Shown: in pieces, positions 13,746 through 38,754 of the stretch
Position numbering within the stretch: the first letter of the stretch is position 1
How the letters are laid out: every line of letters begins with the position of its first letter
NCBI GenBank assembly: GCA_949514915.1
Contig: CATFLP010000015.1
Location: forward strand, 1 to 38,754
Direction of reading: 5' to 3'
Origin: Methanobacteriota archaeon
GTDB taxonomy: Archaea; Thermoplasmatota; Poseidoniia; Poseidoniales; Poseidoniaceae
DNA: 38,754 nt
Notes under the pieces: model-generated
Database searches by the model: none
The model's input: only the letters and a program-made list of their open reading frames with translations
Told to the model about the DNA's origin: nothing
Made by a program: the position numbers and the translations under genes

Positions 13746-16700
13746 TTATTTCCATTCCATCCATTGGCCAGTTCGACCATCTTTGTACCACCAAGCACCA
13801 CTTCCAGATGGGTATTCCAATACTTCGTATCCATCTCTCATTTGTCCTTCCATGTAATTTGGAGGCCTTCCATCTGATGGTGGTGCAGCTGCAGGTACAG
13901 AATCATAAGATACTGGAGCGTTTACAATGTCCTGATAATCATCCCATGCAGCACCATCATCTTGCCACTCATCACCATCTCTGCCTCTTAATTTCATAAC
14001 AGTTAGAAGCCCTAATATTACAACAACTAGAACAGCAATGATGATGATAAATATATTTTGATATTCTCCAAGAGCAGAACTTAATCCAGATCCTGTTCCT
14101 GTATCTTCATCATTATTATTCTCATCATTGTTATCCTCATTTGTATTGTCTAAAGTTTGGTTATCAGATCCTAGAGGGTTGTCTTCAGTTGGTAATGTCT
14201 CGCCATCTTCAGTAGTAACTCCTTCAGATGTAACAACGATTGTAATTGCTGCGGGATTGTAATTCCCTCCACTTACTAATACCTCGATAGTACCTTCTTG
14301 AACAATAAAGTCCGCTTGTCCAGCATCACTAGTTACCATACTAAAAATTGTCCAACTATCTCTTTTTCCAGTTACAGATAAACCTTCTACAGGAATATTG
14401 TCTTCATCTACAACTTGAATAGTTACAGTATCTCCAACTTGTGGGTTTGGAGGACTAAAGCTTAAGAATACGTCCTTAATTTCTGGAGGTTCAGGATTTG
14501 GTGTTGCTTCGACAACCATATTATTTATTGCTGAAATTATTTCAGCATTTTCTCCTTCACCTTTTTGTGCAATTGCAATAATTGTATATTCCCCTACAGG
14601 GGATGAAAGAATTGGCAGTTCTAAATCAGCACTAGATCCTTGTCCCCATGCAATCGAACCCATATTTGAAAGAAGAGAATCAATCAAGTCAAATATTTCT
14701 TCAGGAGTATCTACTTCTGAACCTTCACTGCTATGGTATCCATTTTCAATATAATTACAATCTTCTCCAACTGCTTCAATATACATATTATTTACATGAT
14801 CACCAAGAATTAATTCATAATCTCCACTTAAATCAATTTCATAGTTTGCATACCACTCACTTCCCCAATCTTGATACCAATCTCTAACTGGTGTAATTAA
14901 GAAACCGGAACTATCTTTTAGAACAGTATCTTTAGGATCTGGCATGGATGAACTCCATGGATTATTGTCAACATAAACCCTCATCCTGACATTTGATTTA
15001 CCATATTGAGTATCAGTCTCCCAATCATAGTCTTCTCTGTCTTCACACCATGCATCAGATGAAATGTATACATCCTCGATAGATTTATCATTAGCAACCC
15101 ATCCAATTTCTTCTCTAACTCCTTCACCATACAAAAATTCAGTTACTGCAGACAAATCAATAGTTGCAGGATCAAAACCTTCTTTTGGTGTTGCTACAGC
15201 AAGAATTCTTGATGCTGGCCCATCTTCATCGCTAAGAGCAATATTTGTTACTTGACCTGGCCCTAATTCTCCTGTTAATTTTAACGAAGCAGGATTATTT
15301 AATACAATTCCAATATGTAAAGCATTAGGGAATAAAATTAGGTCACCAGTTCCTACTGACTCACCAGGACAGAAAGATCCATCTTCCCATACATAATCGT
15401 CCCATTCCACCCAATGTTCTTCATTATTATCATATGGATAAAACCATCCATCATCATCGAAATATTCTCCTTCCTGAACATCATAGCATTCATCATTGTT
15501 TCCGTTATTGCCAGTGCTATCAACTGCTATAGCTGCTAACAGATACATTGGTGACTCTAAGTCAACTTCCCAGTTTTTGGCTGTTTCACCACATTCAAAT
15601 TCTAATTCTGTTTCAAATGAACCATCTCCGCCATCCTCATCATTTTGAGGCCCAGTCCATGCATCTTCGTCGACTCCTGGGAATGCCTCTCTAAGAACTA
15701 ATGGAACTAATCCCACAAGAATTCTATGACCATTCTCACAAGGAATATCTGTAGGTGCAATAGAAATTCCAGTGCTTAAATCACCTCTTTCTGAAGAATA
15801 TACAGGGATTCCTCCAAAAGTAGTTTCTTGATTTAAGTCGCCTCCAATTGAAATACTTCCTTCAGTAACTGCTGCAAGATTCATCCCAACTCCTATCATT
15901 TCACTACCATCCGCACGAGTTACTTTCACTTGTGCAATTGAGACATAAGCTCCAGGTAATGTTGGACTCACGGTCATTACCGCTTCTCCATTACTATCAG
16001 AAGTCATGATTTCTTCTTTCATTACTTCAAATGGTCCATCTGTAATGAAACTATCAATAATTACTGGACTTGGTGTCATACTTTCCCAAGAATTTAAACT
16101 ACAATAGTTGTACATACCCCATTCAAAACTTTGATCGTTGTACTCATAATATGTTACATCTTCACCAGTTTCTTCATCATAGTATGTTTTTTCAAACCCA
16201 TCATCATTTTTATATGTAAAATAATGATAATAATGATTATCATCAAAATCTTTGTAATCTACTGTAATTTGATTTTCATACCCTGGATCATTAGTATATT
16301 GATGATACAAGTAATTGTCGTAAGAATCAGATTCCCACGATCCTAGTTCAAGAGTCTCAGTTGTACCATCTCCCCAATTAATATTGATATTTTCAAAATT
16401 AGTAGTATCAAAATATTGATTCCCCTCCCAGGACTGTGTTTTTAAGTACAATTCAATATTATTATTTCCATCTAGCATATATCCCTCAGTATACATACAA
16501 TCAGGTGTTCCAGGCATAGGTATTTGTTCAGTAAATTCAAATTCAATACCTGAATTTGTTTTTCCAGTTGTGGTTACTTCTGCAATACCTATATCTCCAT
16601 TAGCACTAGAAATATCAACATACCATTCACTATTACCATTACCATCTTCTTGGAAAGTATCTTGGAATGTTAATTGATCATATAGATAGACATCTTCTCC

Positions 16701-18917
16701 ATCTCTATGCCCTCTTGGATTTATTTCAACAGTTAAATCACCATTTTCAAGATCATCAGCATTATAATGTCCAGAAATGCTATTTGAACTTGCCCATTCG
16801 TATTCAATTTCTCCTTCAACCTCAAAAGCTTCCACAGCACCTACTGCTGCTTGAGGAGAAACTCTGAGAACAGCTAAATCAACCTCAGCATTTTCAATAG
16901 GTCCACTGTGAGAATATGCTGTTGCCTTAATGTTATAATCATCATTTACATTTGTAGTTTCATCTTGAGTTACTAAAACACCAACGGCTGAAACAATAAA
17001 CATTTCATCATTATTCTCCCATGCCATTGATTCTAACAATGAGGGATTTAATTTTTGAAATTCAATTCTTGCTTCACTAACTTCACAATCATTACATGGT
17101 GGTTCAAAATTACTTAGAGCTTGTGTAAAACTCCATTTGGTATCTTCTATTGTTGATGCTGTTAATCGACCATAATATCTGTACTCATTCCCATCTCTTT
17201 CTAAGAACGTACTTTCAACATCTGCAGGAGTTTTATCATTAGTCATTGCAATTGAGAATTGATCTGGAACATCATCACGATATGGTTCCCATTGTCCCCA
17301 ATCACTTGGATAAAATTCCATAGTTATTCCAATATCCAGTACATTCCTATCATGAATACTAGTGACAACTTCTCTCATTTTACGAGAACTACAATCTTCT
17401 TCACCCTCTTCCTCGTCATATTCACACTCCCCGAAAATTATGGTTTCATCTTCACTATTCCAATCATACCAACTTTCTTCATGCCATGATCTAGATGAGT
17501 CTTCTATCCATTCTCCAAATTCTTCAGCTGATTCTCCAAAACTTTCCCAAACGGGATTAGTTAATGAGTCGAAAACATGTCCCAAAATATGTTCAGGCAT
17601 TGAATTAAATTCATCAAATGCATCATTTACCCATGAAGAACTAGATTCCATTTTCGCGGACCATGCTTGACCTTCTGAAGTATCTAATAATAATTCATAT
17701 TGCCAAGTAATTTCTCCTTCATCATCAGGAATGTCATCACCATTGTAGTCCTCAATGATAGGTTCTGGCATTTCAGCCATACGGACAATTAATTTTTGTA
17801 ATGGAGTCATGCTTTCCCAATCTCCATCAACTAAAGGTTGAGCCCATGCTTCCAAAGAATCAACTATTGCTTCTGGATGTATAGATACAGCCAGTAATGC
17901 AATATTATGCATGATGTTTTGTATAGATTGGAATGGTAATTGATTATTAGCAAGATTTTCAATTGATTCTTGTAAATCATTCCATTCATTACTTCCAAGT
18001 AATGCATTATATGCTGCTTCAAAGTCTCCAGTTCCTTCAAATCTTGTAAAATTCTCAATAGGATCAAATGCTTGCATATGATCTATAACATCACCAAAGT
18101 CTTCTATTACTCTAGGCAATGGAAATTCATCACCATATAGTAAGAAAGCAGCAACCATATCTAATCCCGCGTCTACATCTTCAGAATCTAGAAATTCCAT
18201 TAAAGCTTCTAAGAAATTTGCACCAGCTTCCATATCATATTGATCACGCCCAGCATCTAGCATATTATTCCAAAGTTGTGCACTACCTCCTGGTCCAGTG
18301 CCTTCAGTTGCAGTTTCAACAAAATTAGCCCATCCTCCATTTGATGTCCCTGCTGTTTCTAAACTAGCAAATTCATTTTTTATTTCACCTAATGGATTTG
18401 CAGTATCCCAAGCATTATCAAGAGGTTGTAGAACCTTTGTTTCAAATTTATTAAGTAGCAATTCTGTGATTTGTGTTGCATCATCAACAGCAATCATATT
18501 TCCATGTTCTGCTTTAATTGATGCAGCATAAGTACCGCCTAGGGAAGTAACAGGAACAGTATATACGCCCTTCCAAGTCATTGTATTAACATCATCAATG
18601 TGATAACCAGTATTCTGTAAAACTACAGTATCAACAATTACTCCATTTAATGGAAGTTGACCATTTATTATTTGAATAGGATCCATATCATATCTTAAAA
18701 TATCTGCAGTAACTTGAGTGTTACTTGTATGTCCTCTTGTATGTGCCATTATTTCTACATCAGAACCAACTGATGCAAATTTTGTTGTTACAAAACCATC
18801 AACGCTTAGAGTTTCCCCATTTACGGTTACTGAGTTTGGTGTTGCTATTTGTGCAATTACAGGTGTTAATGACATCCCAATTAGGATAAATATCATCAAA
18901 AACGTATTCCTTTTCAT
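13746..18917 (-). CDS. Giant surface-anchored protein (1723 aa) with PKD/Ig-like regions and C-terminal membrane anchor
   Basis: Secreted cell-surface protein. A signal peptide (MKRNTFLMIFILIGMSLTPVIA) is followed by about 1600 outside residues, very acidic and rich in Trp, Tyr, Asp and Asn. A PKD-like piece with WGDGTTE lies at about residue 847. An Ig/Big-like domain (VGDTVTIQVVDEDNIPVEGLSV) lies near residues 1490-1565. An Asp/Asn-rich spacer leads to a single helix (about 1617-1640) and a cytoplasmic tail of about 80 residues. The tail ends in a Trp-rich motif, GAWWYKDGRTGQWMEWK, of the kind many marine archaeal surface proteins share (from memory). The ATG at 18917 has GGATGA upstream; the GTG four codons earlier overlaps that site. 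It may be a cell-wall, adhesion or polymer-capture protein; no catalytic motif was seen. Confidence 0.85.
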   Translation of the reverse strand: MKRNTFLMIFILIGMSLTPVIAQIATPNSVTVNGETLSVDGFVTTKFASVGSDVEIMAHTRGHTSNTQVTADILRYDMDPIQIINGQLPLNGVIVDTVVLQNTGYHIDDVNTMTWKGVYTVPVTSLGGTYAASIKAEHGNMIAVDDATQITELLLNKFETKVLQPLDNAWDTANPLGEIKNEFASLETAGTSNGGWANFVETATEGTGPGGSAQLWNNMLDAGRDQYDMEAGANFLEALMEFLDSEDVDAGLDMVAAFLLYGDEFPLPRVIEDFGDVIDHMQAFDPIENFTRFEGTGDFEAAYNALLGSNEWNDLQESIENLANNQLPFQSIQNIMHNIALLAVSIHPEAIVDSLEAWAQPLVDGDWESMTPLQKLIVRMAEMPEPIIEDYNGDDIPDDEGEITWQYELLLDTSEGQAWSAKMESSSSWVNDAFDEFNSMPEHILGHVFDSLTNPVWESFGESAEEFGEWIEDSSRSWHEESWYDWNSEDETIIFGECEYDEEEGEEDCSSRKMREVVTSIHDRNVLDIGITMEFYPSDWGQWEPYRDDVPDQFSIAMTNDKTPADVESTFLERDGNEYRYYGRLTASTIEDTKWSFTQALSNFEPPCNDCEVSEARIEFQKLNPSLLESMAWENNDEMFIVSAVGVLVTQDETTNVNDDYNIKATAYSHSGPIENAEVDLAVLRVSPQAAVGAVEAFEVEGEIEYEWASSNSISGHYNADDLENGDLTVEINPRGHRDGEDVYLYDQLTFQDTFQEDGNGNSEWYVDISSANGDIGIAEVTTTGKTNSGIEFEFTEQIPMPGTPDCMYTEGYMLDGNNNIELYLKTQSWEGNQYFDTTNFENININWGDGTTETLELGSWESDSYDNYLYHQYTNDPGYENQITVDYKDFDDNHYYHYFTYKNDDGFEKTYYDEETGEDVTYYEYNDQSFEWGMYNYCSLNSWESMTPSPVIIDSFITDGPFEVMKEEIMTSDSNGEAVMTVSPTLPGAYVSIAQVKVTRADGSEMIGVGMNLAAVTEGSISIGGDLNQETTFGGIPVYSSERGDLSTGISIAPTDIPCENGHRILVGLVPLVLREAFPGVDEDAWTGPQNDEDGGDGSFETELEFECGETAKNWEVDLESPMYLLAAIAVDSTGNNGNNDECYDVQEGEYFDDDGWFYPYDNNEEHWVEWDDYVWEDGSFCPGESVGTGDLILFPNALHIGIVLNNPASLKLTGELGPGQVTNIALSDEDGPASRILAVATPKEGFDPATIDLSAVTEFLYGEGVREEIGWVANDKSIEDVYISSDAWCEDREDYDWETDTQYGKSNVRMRVYVDNNPWSSSMPDPKDTVLKDSSGFLITPVRDWYQDWGSEWYANYEIDLSGDYELILGDHVNNMYIEAVGEDCNYIENGYHSSEGSEVDTPEEIFDLIDSLLSNMGSIAWGQGSSADLELPILSSPVGEYTIIAIAQKGEGENAEIISAINNMVVEATPNPEPPEIKDVFLSFSPPNPQVGDTVTIQVVDEDNIPVEGLSVTGKRDSWTIFSMVTSDAGQADFIVQEGTIEVLVSGGNYNPAAITIVVTSEGVTTEDGETLPTEDNPLGSDNQTLDNTNEDNNDENNNDEDTGTGSGLSSALGEYQNIFIIIIAVLVVVILGLLTVMKLRGRDGDEWQDDGAAWDDYQDIVNAPVSYDSVPAAAPPSDGRPPNYMEGQMRDGYEVLEYPSGSGAWWYKDGRTGQWMEWK

Positions 18918-18983
18918 AAAGTCATCCACTAATCTTTTATTAATAGATGTATTTATTTAATGGATAAATTATTTTTAGTAAAT

Positions 18984-35331: not shown

Positions 35332-35781
35332 TTGGCGGCAAAGAAATCTAAATCAAATAGTAAGAAATCAAAGGCTTCTCAGAAGTCTAAAAAGGCAACA
35401 TCGGCTAAGAAATCAGTAGCGGCAAAGAAAGCAGCAGCGACAAGAAAAGCAAATGCTGCTAAGAAAGTAGCAGCAGCTAAAGCAGCAGCAGCTAAGAAAG
35501 CAGCAGCGGCAAAGAAAGCAGCAGCGACAAGAAAAGCAAATGCTGCTAAGAAAGCAGCAGCAGCTAAAGCAGCAGCAGCTAAGAAAGCAGCAGCGGCAAA
35601 GAAAGCAGCAGCAACAAGAAAAGCAAATGCTGCTAAGAAAGCAGCAGCGGCAAAGAAAGCAGCAGCAGCTAAGAAAGCAGCAGCGGCCAAAAGAAAAGCC
35701 GCTGATTTAGCTAAAAAGGGAATCATTAAGTCACCAAAGTTAAGTGATGTACTTTCTAAAATAAATAAAAATAGAAAATAA
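35332..35781 (+). CDS. Histone H1-like Lys/Ala-rich protein with 29-residue repeats
   Basis: A 149-residue, extremely basic protein, mostly Ala and Lys, resembling the C-terminal tails of histone H1 and bacterial HctB/AlgP-type proteins that compact DNA. The N-terminal 25 residues are Ser/Lys-rich (KKSKSNSKKSK). Three copies of a 29-residue unit with AATRKANAAKK follow, the third shortened. The C-terminal 25 residues (DLAKKGIIKSPKLSDVLSKINKNRK) break the pattern and may be a separate interaction tail. It starts at TTG with AGGGGA 5 bases upstream. A nucleoid or RNA-binding role is inferred. Followed by the 59-residue zinc-finger-like gene. Confidence 0.85.
   Translation: MAAKKSKSNSKKSKASQKSKKATSAKKSVAAKKAAATRKANAAKKVAAAKAAAAKKAAAAKKAAATRKANAAKKAAAAKAAAAKKAAAAKKAAATRKANAAKKAAAAKKAAAAKKAAAAKRKAADLAKKGIIKSPKLSDVLSKINKNRK
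35419..35646 (+). repeat. 87-bp in-frame tandem repeat inside the Lys/Ala-rich gene
   Basis: The unit beginning GCGGCAAAGAAAGCAGCAGC starts at 35419, 35506 and 35593 (period 87 bp, 29 codons); the third copy is cut after 54 bp, where another GCGGCAAAG begins at 35647. Copies 1 and 2 differ by single bases (for example GTA versus GCA codons). In-frame expansion or contraction by slippage or recombination is expected. Confidence 0.95.
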
Positions 35782-35999: not shown

Positions 36000-37007
36000 T
36001 TATTCTTCAATTCTTTCTAAATTACTTTGAGCACGACTATAGACTTCTCTAAGAGTTTGATCATTTATTTCTAGGTATACTCTTGTTGTTTGAATATTAG
36101 CGTGACCCAATAGACGTTGTATTGAAACAATGTCAGCACCCCTTTCTAGTAACCCAGTAGCAAAATTATGCCTTAATACGTGTGGAGAAAGTCGTTTTTT
36201 TGAGATATTTGCATCTTCAGCAATTCGATCCATCAATTTTTGAATTCCACGTGGAGTGATACGTTTACCTTTTGAATTAACCAATAAAGCATCTTCATCA
36301 ACAAGATGTAACTTTCCTCTTAATACAATCCAACAATCTAATACTTCAGCGGTTTGATCTGTATAAAGTACCATTCTGTCTTTGTTACCTTTCCCACCTA
36401 CAACCCTTGCACTTTTATCTGAAAAGTCAACATCATGAATATTTAATCCACATAATTCACTAACTCTTATTCCAGTTTCTAACAAAAAGGTGACAATTAA
36501 ATGTGCAAGAGGATTTTCACTATTGAATGCTGCAGTTCTAACGGATTTCAACTCATCATTTGAAAGTATTTTTGGTATTTGTTTACCTTTTCGAGGCCTA
36601 ATAATATGTTCAGGTAAATGATGACCAACCCATTCAATTAGATGACTTATAGCCGCAAGGCGAGCATTAACAGTAGATGGTTTCAACTCATTAATTGATT
36701 GTAACCAAATGTCTAATCTTCCATTATTCGGATTAACATAGGAATTTAATTCTTTTACAGTCAAACTTTCAATCTCGCCAATATCATTTTCATTGATTGA
36801 TATTTTTGTAGATAGGAACTTTTTTGCTGCACAAAGATATGATTTAATGGTGTTGTTACTTTTACCTTCTGTTTTTAGTTGTTGGATCCAACAAGGATAC
36901 CATGAAACATGAGATAAACGAATTATCCTATCTGGTAAGTTTACATCGTTTAATTTTTTTTGAAGGTCTAGTAATTGCTCTAATTCTTGATTACGTTCTA
37001 AAGACAT
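36000..37007 (-). CDS. xerA: Tyrosine recombinase, XerA/XerD type
   Basis: 335-residue tyrosine recombinase. N-terminal SAM-like core-binding domain (about residues 30-140; KSNNTIKSYLCAAKKFL), then the catalytic domain with R181 (ETGIRVSEL), the lysine in GGKGNKDRMV, HVLRHNFAT, LGHANIQTTRVYLEI and the nucleophile Y311. The full R-K-H-R-H-Y set is present, so it should be active. Archaeal XerA resolves chromosome dimers at a dif site; nothing here shows a mobile element. ATG at 37007 has GGGGAT upstream; a TTG frame 51 bases longer is not needed. Confidence 0.92.
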   Translation of the reverse strand: MSLERNQELEQLLDLQKKLNDVNLPDRIIRLSHVSWYPCWIQQLKTEGKSNNTIKSYLCAAKKFLSTKISINENDIGEIESLTVKELNSYVNPNNGRLDIWLQSINELKPSTVNARLAAISHLIEWVGHHLPEHIIRPRKGKQIPKILSNDELKSVRTAAFNSENPLAHLIVTFLLETGIRVSELCGLNIHDVDFSDKSARVVGGKGNKDRMVLYTDQTAEVLDCWIVLRGKLHLVDEDALLVNSKGKRITPRGIQKLMDRIAEDANISKKRLSPHVLRHNFATGLLERGADIVSIQRLLGHANIQTTRVYLEINDQTLREVYSRAQSNLERIEE

Positions 37008-37118: not shown

Positions 37119-38336
37119 TTATGATGTTTCAAAATTTTCCGCTTTTTTACTTTGTGGATTTATTTTCCTATTATTATATTCTTCAAAATTCAAGATATTT
37201 CTCAAATTTATTCTTAATTGATGCAAATCTCCGTAGAAAATTAAAATATCATTATATCTTAATTTCAAATTATTTTCTGGAGCCCAAACTAATTGACGTG
37301 ATCGAGATAAAGCAAATGCATGAGTGCCAGAATCATTGAAAACTTCTCCAATTTCTTCACCAACTAACCATGGATGGTTAACTAAGTGAATTGGTAGAAT
37401 ACCATGCCCTGGAACAGTAAGCAGTAATTGATCCATACTTACTTTCACGAATTGTGCATCTTCTTCTAAGAAATCTATTATTTTCTCAGCAACATTTACT
37501 CCAGAAGCCATCTCTATACCCTCTAAACCTGGAGAGGAATTTATTTCAAGAACTAGTGGGCCATTTTTCCCTTCTAGTAAATCGACACCTGCAATGTTTA
37601 ATCCTAATACTCTTGCAGCTCTCAGCGCTACTTCTTCATATTCTTTAGGTAAATCAATAGATTCTACAGTCCCATTTAAATGGAAATTAGATCTAAATTC
37701 TCTTCCTCTAGCTCGCCTCCTCATACAAGCAACAACTTTGTCACCAACAACCAATGCTCTAATATCAGTACCATGACTTTCATGAATATATTGTTGAATT
37801 AAAACTTCATGTTCTAAATCTAATAATGCAGAAACAAGTCCAATTGCATCTTTGTATAAATGTCGAAGGTATACTCCTCGCCCCTGTGTTCCTTCTGAGA
37901 CTTTAATTACAACTGGAAGGCCTCCGACTAAATCAATTGCTCTTTTTACATCATTAATATTACGAACATATGCAGTTTTTGGAATTGGAACATTATTCCT
38001 GCCAAGTATTTGTGCAGCCAATAATTTATTCCTACTTTGCCTGATTCCTTCGCTAGTATTTGCTGTATAAATATCCAATTGTTCAAATTGTTTCAATAAT
38101 GCAACTCCATGTGAAGTAATAGAATGGCCAATTCTTGGCAATACAGCATCAAAAGTTACTTTGTTCCCTTTATGTAGTATTTGAGGAGCTTCTCTACTTA
38201 TTGATAATGAAAACTGTAAAGGATCTAAGATTGAGGTTTGAATTCCTCTTTTTAGTGCTTCTTCTTGCAATCTTCTTGTGCTGTATAGCCTTGGACCTCT
38301 AGAAAGAATTGCTAATCGCAAAGTGACCCCACCCAT
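37119..38336 (-). CDS. rimK: RimK-like ATP-grasp ligase with TrkA-C-like C-terminal domain
   Basis: ATP-grasp ligase of the RimK/LysX/MptN group, which adds glutamate or a related amino acid to a protein or cofactor. The N-terminal preATP-grasp part (residues 1-105) has LAILSRG and DAVLPRIG. The ATP-grasp part has IKVSEGTQGRGV (about 144-155), RALVVGDKVVACMRR and the metal-binding LEINSSPGLEGIE (E264, N266). Residues 300-382 form an extra domain with the pattern of TrkA-C/RCK-C (LVGEEIGEVFN, LRYNDILIFYGDLHQL), which is not in E. coli RimK. Targets could be ribosomal protein S6, a coenzyme F420-like cofactor or methanopterin-type molecules; the choice is open. Start ATG 38336 or a TTG at 38321 (with GGTGGGG before it). 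It diverges from the SAP-domain gene. Confidence 0.85.
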   Translation of the reverse strand: MGGVTLRLAILSRGPRLYSTRRLQEEALKRGIQTSILDPLQFSLSISREAPQILHKGNKVTFDAVLPRIGHSITSHGVALLKQFEQLDIYTANTSEGIRQSRNKLLAAQILGRNNVPIPKTAYVRNINDVKRAIDLVGGLPVVIKVSEGTQGRGVYLRHLYKDAIGLVSALLDLEHEVLIQQYIHESHGTDIRALVVGDKVVACMRRRARGREFRSNFHLNGTVESIDLPKEYEEVALRAARVLGLNIAGVDLLEGKNGPLVLEINSSPGLEGIEMASGVNVAEKIIDFLEEDAQFVKVSMDQLLLTVPGHGILPIHLVNHPWLVGEEIGEVFNDSGTHAFALSRSRQLVWAPENNLKLRYNDILIFYGDLHQLRINLRNILNFEEYNNRKINPQSKKAENFETS

Positions 38337-38453
38337 GCAAGGGAAATAAAGACCCCTTTTTCAGGTCTTGGGTAATTCTATAAGGTAATAAATCGTATCT
38401 TGAAGTGATGTTTTAAGCAACAGACTTGAAAGGTTAGTAATGTCCCAACATTA

Positions 38454-38754
38454 ATGTTACAGATGCCAGAACAAGACGAACCTAGTGTGGATTTACCTCC
38501 ATCATCCCTTTCACATAAGGAGTTAAGGATGCTTTGTTTAGATTCTGATTTATCAATTTCAGGTAAAAAATCTGTTTTAATTGAAAGGTTATTAGATGCA
38601 GGATTATCTTGGGAAGAATTAGGTTTAGAAACCACAGATGAAATTTCTGAAAATGTTGAAGAAGAATTAATTTTGGAAGAATCTGAGCCATTAGAAGAAT
38701 CTGAGCCATTAGAAGAATCTGAGCCATTAGAAGAATCTGAGCCATTAGAAGAAT
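38454..38754 (+). CDS. SAP-domain protein with acidic hexapeptide repeats (3'-truncated by window)
   Basis: Open frame from ATG 38454 (or ATG 38463) that runs off the window. Residues about 17-50 (SLSHKELRMLCLDSDLSISG followed by KKSVLIERLLDAG) match the SAP motif, a helix-extended loop-helix DNA/RNA-binding fold: Leu spacing, the Gly before Lys-Lys and the ERLL end all fit. An acidic linker follows (GLETTDEISENVEEELIL), then at least four copies of ESEPLE. The length of the full protein is unknown. A TATA-like CTATAAGG lies about 70 bp upstream. Confidence 0.8.
   Translation, partial: MLQMPEQDEPSVDLPPSSLSHKELRMLCLDSDLSISGKKSVLIERLLDAGLSWEELGLETTDEISENVEEELILEESEPLEESEPLEESEPLEESEPLEE
38679..38754 (+). 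repeat. 18-bp tandem repeat (ESEPLE coding), cut by window end
   Basis: The unit GAATCTGAGCCATTAGAA starts at 38679, 38697, 38715 and 38733, with a fifth beginning at 38751. All visible copies are identical in DNA, including third codon positions, so they arose recently by slippage or are kept equal by recombination. Confidence 0.97.

Follow-up and report, generated by a model that had tools for sequence, protein, structure and literature searches.

A SAP-domain membrane protein family of Poseidoniales, predicted from a gene that breaks off in a perfect 18-bp tandem array

The locus and the tandem array at the contig end

The window, i.e., the whole stretch of 38,754 nucleotides that was analysed, is the entire contig C15 (1 to 38754) of an assembly that has 130 contigs and is 85% complete. 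At its end an open reading frame on the plus strand, 38454 to 38754, stays open up to the last base. The features in this region are as follows.

35332 to 35781, plus strand: Lys/Ala-rich (H1-tail-like) protein, a conserved neighbour (synteny kept at 27 of 28 loci; the window copy matches nothing in Pfam)
36000 to 37007, minus strand: XerA-like tyrosine recombinase (Pfam Phage_integrase, 2.4e-39; NCBIfam XerA_Arch, 210.5 bits, just below the cut-off of 220)
37119 to 38336, minus strand: RimK-like ATP-grasp ligase with a weak C-terminal TrkA_C match, divergent neighbour (Pfam; NCBIfam rimK_fam)
38337 to 38462, no strand: intergenic region between the divergent RimK-type gene and the SAP gene (open reading frame map)
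38463 to 38754, plus strand: 5' part, open at its 3' end, of a gene for SAP domain, acidic linker, transmembrane helix and ectodomain (orthologue alignment; alternative ATG at 38454; rest on contig C93)
38502 to 38600, plus strand: segment coding for the SAP domain (PF02037; the orthologue profile hits the SAP domains of Tho1 and DEK in PDB)
38619 to 38754, plus strand: start of the acidic linker, predicted to be disordered (orthologue linkers; pLDDT about 28 to 46 at residues 101 to 170 of the L065 model)
38676 to 38754, plus strand: 18-bp tandem array, 4.4 perfect EESEPL copies, reaching the contig end (Tandem Repeats Finder; LILEESEP motif in L033 and L035)

The start codon at 38463 is likelier than the one at 38454, because aligned relatives begin with M(S/A)(E/D). 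A promoter scan of 38337 to 38462 gave hits at chance level, with a bacterial consensus that is not meaningful for archaea.

The array has a period of 18 bp, each copy encoding EESEPL, and Tandem Repeats Finder gives it 4.4 copies, 100% matches and a score of 158, from which follows that it is not explicable by chance. The perfect identity of the copies at the DNA level and the acidic, Pro-containing repeats after a SAP motif, both claimed in the original prediction, are thus confirmed. Within this genome the repeat pattern occurs only at the window end, with three overlapping matches. Contig C15 stops within the array, so that the 4.4 copies are those up to the contig end. Two relatives of the same genus, L033 and L035, have LILEESEP followed by a different acidic sequence, so that the array looks like an expansion of this conserved LILEESEP / EESEP motif; L033 also carries an additional, diverged EESEP copy.

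Tandem repeats with a score of at least 36 are present in 30 of 75 orthologue linkers, and the window array is by far the strongest among them, the next score being 92. The periods, among those listed, are all multiples of three. It is possible, if rather unlikely, that looping in the assembler graph has determined how many copies this real array seems to have and how perfect they look. The contig stops after exactly 79 bp of array, which by inference is about one k-mer of common assemblers; in L036 a run of N stands between identical 20-bp copies at the same linker position; and genome G016 has the SAP part on one contig and the ectodomain on another. Against such an origin, other linkers carry in-frame tandems within continuous contigs, e.g., L128 (15 bp, 2.5 copies, 100% matches) and L101 (27 bp, 3.1 copies).

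From SAP head to ectodomain

Of 144 related genomes searched at the protein level, 100 give a match at E <= 0.001, with other SAP proteins among the weaker matches. The best-matching orthologues belong to the same genus and have 717 to 766 amino acids; across Poseidoniales (marine group II archaea) the orthologues have about 700 to 790. When the 766-residue orthologue is used as query, its residues 1 to 74 match C15 and its residues 393 to 764 match, at 75% identity, the end of C93, another contig of this genome, where 371 open codons make up the C-terminal part and are followed by genes for proteins of 149, about 200 and about 560 amino acids, as in relatives. Query residues 75 to 392 have no match in C15, in C93 or elsewhere in the genome. 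From the match on C93 and the conserved gene order we infer that the two parts belong to one gene, continuous in the organism and split by an assembly gap. The assembly does break within the repeat, as the original prediction had allowed for, while a stop or frameshift soon after the window, which it had also considered, is not supported, the C-terminal part being present on C93. Reading past position 38754 thus gave the C-terminal part, but not the full repeat number.

The SAP motif proposed in the original prediction stands. PF02037 matches residues 17 to 48 of the window protein with an E value of 7e-6 and 26.0 bits, above the curated Pfam cut-off of 23.9; of three orthologues, P0001 and P0003 are above the cut-off and P0002, with 23.5 bits, is just below it. 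The Pfam match and the orthologues rule out that the SAP call is due to chance or low complexity. Searched against PDB sequences, a profile built from the 72 orthologues finds SAP domains of solved structure, in Tho1 (E = 0.0023) and in DEK (E = 0.0086), and the DEK match covers the SAP part plus an acidic stretch. Three basic positions, K/R at residue 22, K36 and R42, are each kept in 72 of 72 orthologues. For the orthologue L065, AlphaFold2 predicts a helix-extension-helix fold with helices at 18 to 27 and 36 to 45 and a pLDDT of about 90. The domain is a probable DNA- or RNA-binding head.

The acidic stretch was originally taken as the tail of the protein. This is not borne out: it is an internal linker, and the orthologues continue to a transmembrane helix and an ectodomain of about 550 residues. 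The order SAP, acidic linker, hydrophobic helix, ectodomain is the same in alignments of 19 and of 72 orthologues. The latter set, on which the statistics below rest, contains 72 of 80 loci; L066, L094, L103, L106, L133, L137, L139 and L141 were dropped as gapped or truncated. In all 72 the linker has 69 to 145 residues and a net charge of -11 to -44, and the ectodomain has 546 to 563 residues. These values suggest that the length of the linker is loosely constrained and its acidity constrained. A motif of about 27 residues, PPIPxxGLPxGWTMEQWxxYGxxWL, for which no Pfam name was seen, lies within the linkers of L035, L046 and L047, and also near the C-terminus of several other proteins (L055 to L060), with six places in the window genome.

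Of 19 orthologues picked by hand, 18 show by hydropathy a transmembrane helix ahead of the ectodomain, and the 72-sequence alignment shows it too; in the remaining one of the 19, L050, the segment is below the threshold and yet aligns across the helix. A second hydrophobic peak, inside the ectodomain, is seen in 4 of the 19, and the model places it in the fold rather than in a membrane helix. The AlphaFold2 model of L065, built from 72 sequences, has a mean pLDDT of 78.5 and a pTM of 0.68, with the SAP part at about 90, residues 101 to 170 disordered at about 28 to 46, a transmembrane helix at 187 to 208, and a beta-rich ectodomain mostly above 85. No hydrophobic segment precedes the SAP domain, the mean net charge just before the helix is +1.6, and six ectodomain cysteines (C256, C327, C453, C489, C577 and C640) are each present in 71 to 72 of 72 orthologues. 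From these three cues we infer that the N-terminus is cytosolic and that the ectodomain is outside. The ectodomain has no excess of N-glycosylation sequons (mean of 3.0, against 4.0 in shuffled sequences), and an extracellular glycosylation signature is thus unsupported by the sequon counts.

The ectodomain belongs to no family in Pfam (E <= 1) or NCBIfam (E <= 0.1), and a profile search against PDB sequences matched only the SAP part and the linker. By structure, residues 213 to 528 of the full model match DUF1849 with Z = 11.7, outer-membrane barrels with Z up to 10.8 and RseB with Z = 9.3, a match that spans 212 to 758, while residues 564 to 760 match the lipoprotein CD1622 with Z = 8.8. 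When the first lobe is modelled alone (mean pLDDT 85.5), its matches are DUF1849 (Z = 11.0), OmpG (9.6), VioE (8.9), RseB (8.6), LolA (8.5) and LolB (8.5); the LolA and LolB entries range from 8.1 to 8.5, and outer-membrane barrels stand alongside at 9 to 10. With moderate confidence, the first lobe is modelled as an open barrel like those of LolA, RseB and DUF1849. This assignment is a resemblance only, because the lobe alone has no Foldseek match at E <= 0.001 and the outer-membrane barrels reach Z = 9 to 10. By analogy with the fold class, the outer barrel might take a lipid-like ligand.

A profile of the first lobe matches 33 of 145 genomes of the phylum, with one match each, and all 33 lie within the 34 genomes of two Poseidoniales families; the exception is G056, 88% complete, with no match. 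Outside Poseidoniales none of 111 genomes matches (three of a third family in the class and 108 others). Loci that are named in public records come from metagenome-assembled genomes or single cells of Poseidoniales/Euryarchaeota. This is, then, an order-wide, single-copy membrane protein family and a new combination of known parts. In the one literature library searched, no published account was found of a SAP membrane protein of Poseidoniales or marine group II.

SAP domains in the class and readings of the protein

Of 24 relatives, 23 have 4 to 11 PF02037 matches per genome, and the last, which is 58% complete, has 3. Genomes of the phylum outside the class have 0 to 2 such matches, and 14 control genomes have none. 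Seven other SAP proteins of the window genome and seven of G014, where there are nine matches, were surveyed. In the window genome the domain is fused to L32e, S3Ae, an AP-endonuclease-like barrel, an M28 peptidase with a transmembrane segment, a COX1-like protein with multiple transmembrane segments and two further transmembrane proteins; in G014 it is fused to L32e, S3Ae, FKBP, Pus10, an M28 peptidase and two other transmembrane proteins. Transmembrane segments are called by hydropathy in four of the seven and three of the seven, respectively. The SAP domain is C-terminal in S3Ae (L155, L147) and N-terminal in L32e (L154, L145), in both cases joined through an acidic stretch, and the COX1-like protein L158 (G000:C89) has EF-hands and a C-terminal SAP domain. 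For at least 18 of 19 S3Ae genes in the class, a SAP match lies on the same strand within a few hundred bases downstream (coordinates matched by hand), and the S3Ae fusion thus appears to be class-wide. No published account of a SAP domain on archaeal L32e or other ribosomal proteins was found in the library searched.

We tentatively favour, at somewhat less than an even chance, a reading in which the protein is a single-pass tether from nucleoid or RNA to the envelope, and possibly a sensor, as predicted from its SAP domain, linker, transmembrane helix and modelled ectodomain. The cytosolic SAP head would hold DNA (or RNA) near the membrane, and the acidic linker would serve as a flexible, self-repelling spacer that keeps this head off the membrane. 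The outer barrel would bind an envelope ligand, either lipid-like or a protein, so that the whole protein would link nucleoid and envelope and could signal the state of the envelope inward. The 18-bp repeat would be a recent in-frame expansion of the conserved EESEP motif in the linker.

That the head acts on DNA only is a view weakened by the presence of SAP domains on S3Ae and L32e. Because the same type of domain is fused to ribosomal proteins, FKBP and Pus10, it may bind RNA or protein just as well as DNA. The domain could instead be a general address tag that brings membrane and soluble proteins to ribosomes, to RNA or to some protein partner that they share, rather than part of a DNA tether. 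The expansion in the class, the diverse soluble and ribosomal fusion partners, among them the AP-endonuclease-like barrel, the M28 peptidases and the COX1-like protein, and the transmembrane segments in other SAP proteins of both surveyed genomes all point this way. Nevertheless, DEK and Tho1, the domains matched in PDB, act on chromatin or nucleic acid, and no common partner has been identified; we hold the address tag to be an unlikely, though serious, explanation.

Improbable is a third reading, a one-component transmembrane transcription regulator of the ToxR or CadC kind, where an outer LolA/RseB-like sensor would alter the action of the SAP domain at promoters. The order of parts (DNA-binding head, linker, one transmembrane helix, outer domain) is as expected for such a regulator, the structural matches include RseB, an envelope-stress sensor, and transmembrane regulators have been reported in 367 of 404 archaeal species (PMC10269533); the main text of that survey contains no word starting with SAP or Poseidon. 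The regulator is opposed by the absence of a winged-helix domain, only SAP families matching at E <= 1 in Pfam, and by the single-copy, order-wide presence of the protein, which fits a structural role at least equally well. Moreover, SAP is neither a winged helix nor a helix-turn-helix, and as a rule domains of this type have little preference for particular sequences.

As a wider speculation, which we rate as quite improbable, the SAP domain of Poseidoniia, carried by S3Ae, L32e, a peptidyl-prolyl isomerase, a Pus10-type RNA-modifying enzyme and, at their cytosolic ends, several membrane proteins, would be a cell-wide wiring module by which ribosomes and envelope are coupled to one nucleic-acid scaffold, and the present protein would be its order-wide envelope anchor, with a linker length tuned by in-frame minisatellite change.

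In the neighbourhood of the SAP gene, a divergent RimK-like gene stands upstream in 69 of 80 loci, a protein with two transmembrane segments between the RimK-like and SAP genes in 68 of 80, and a soluble protein of about 146 residues downstream in 43 of 80, where truncated contigs lower all three counts. Neither the downstream nor the two-segment protein has a Pfam match, and the latter is not found in the loci of the window genus (L065 to L067). In all of these 69 loci, a RimK-like glutamate ligase is divergent to a gene with a Glu-rich linker. The two-segment protein of other genera has a C-terminal GYFFRKMPDGTYDQ tail, similar in appearance to the Trp/Tyr-rich tail GYEVLEYPSGSGAWWYKDGRTGQWMEWK that follows the transmembrane segment of a large secreted-type protein at 13746 to 18929 (minus strand) of the window. 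Among the 28 loci that show both XerA and the gene beyond it, 27 have a Lys/Ala-rich reading frame in this place (hand count). In some other genera this neighbour has a helix-hairpin-helix head, with HHH_5 above the cut-off in two of four tested; in the window genus no Pfam match is found in L067 or the window copy, and the window protein seems to be without this head.

The conserved neighbourhood makes it plausible that the SAP protein and the Lys/Ala-rich protein share a process. That they form a charge-paired complex, an interaction raised in the original prediction, is very improbable in spite of this neighbourhood, since the genes are separate, with XerA and RimK between them and not in one operon, since unrelated SAP proteins also have acidic stretches, and since the helix-hairpin-helix head in other genera suggests that the Lys/Ala-rich neighbour itself binds DNA. 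Charge complementarity is not specific here, because acidic linkers also join SAP domains to other partners, e.g., ribosomal proteins. A gene for the nucleoid protein MC1 has been reported from marine group II archaea (PMC7613761), and the Lys/Ala-rich or the SAP protein would therefore act beside MC1.

Likeness to known systems

Although abundant, the marine group II archaea have not been brought into culture. For the tether reading, an order-specific, single-copy membrane protein with a SAP head would be a concrete candidate for a link between nucleoid and envelope, and its linkers of 69 to 145 residues are a natural series for probing the role of the acidic linker. The protein appears to be a new arrangement of components that are otherwise found in ToxR-type regulators and in SAP-like proteins of the inner nuclear membrane.

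With Tho1 and DEK it shares the sequence type of the SAP domain, a predicted two-helix fold and the conserved G-x-K-x-x-L-x-x-R core; those are nuclear proteins, whereas here the domain is at the end of a membrane protein. The first lobe of the ectodomain resembles in its topology class the open barrels of LolA, LolB, LppX, RseB and DUF1849, but is preceded by an N-terminal transmembrane anchor and followed by a second lobe of another kind, and no sequence similarity to these proteins is detected. A possible likeness is to the sensor RseB/MucB, which consists of a LolA-like lobe and a second lobe and binds an anti-sigma factor, as RseB is among the matches to the full model. ToxR and CadC have in common with the present protein, as predicted, a DNA-binding head, a linker, a single transmembrane helix and an extracytoplasmic domain, but their head is a winged helix, in the place of which a SAP domain is found here.

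The HeH/LEM proteins of the inner nuclear membrane have a long low-complexity linker. Among them, Src1/Heh1 and MAN1 have an N-terminal SAP-like domain that is able to touch DNA directly (PMC4810098). They share with the present protein the order of SAP-like head, linker and membrane anchor. Dictyostelium Src1 has two transmembrane segments, in contrast to the single one and the ectodomain of different fold here, and three orthologues searched in Pfam at E <= 1 give no match to the MSC (Man1-Src1 C-terminal) domain. For a membrane protein that bears a SAP-like head, the HeH inner nuclear membrane proteins are the nearest analogue, and the likeness is likely to be convergent.
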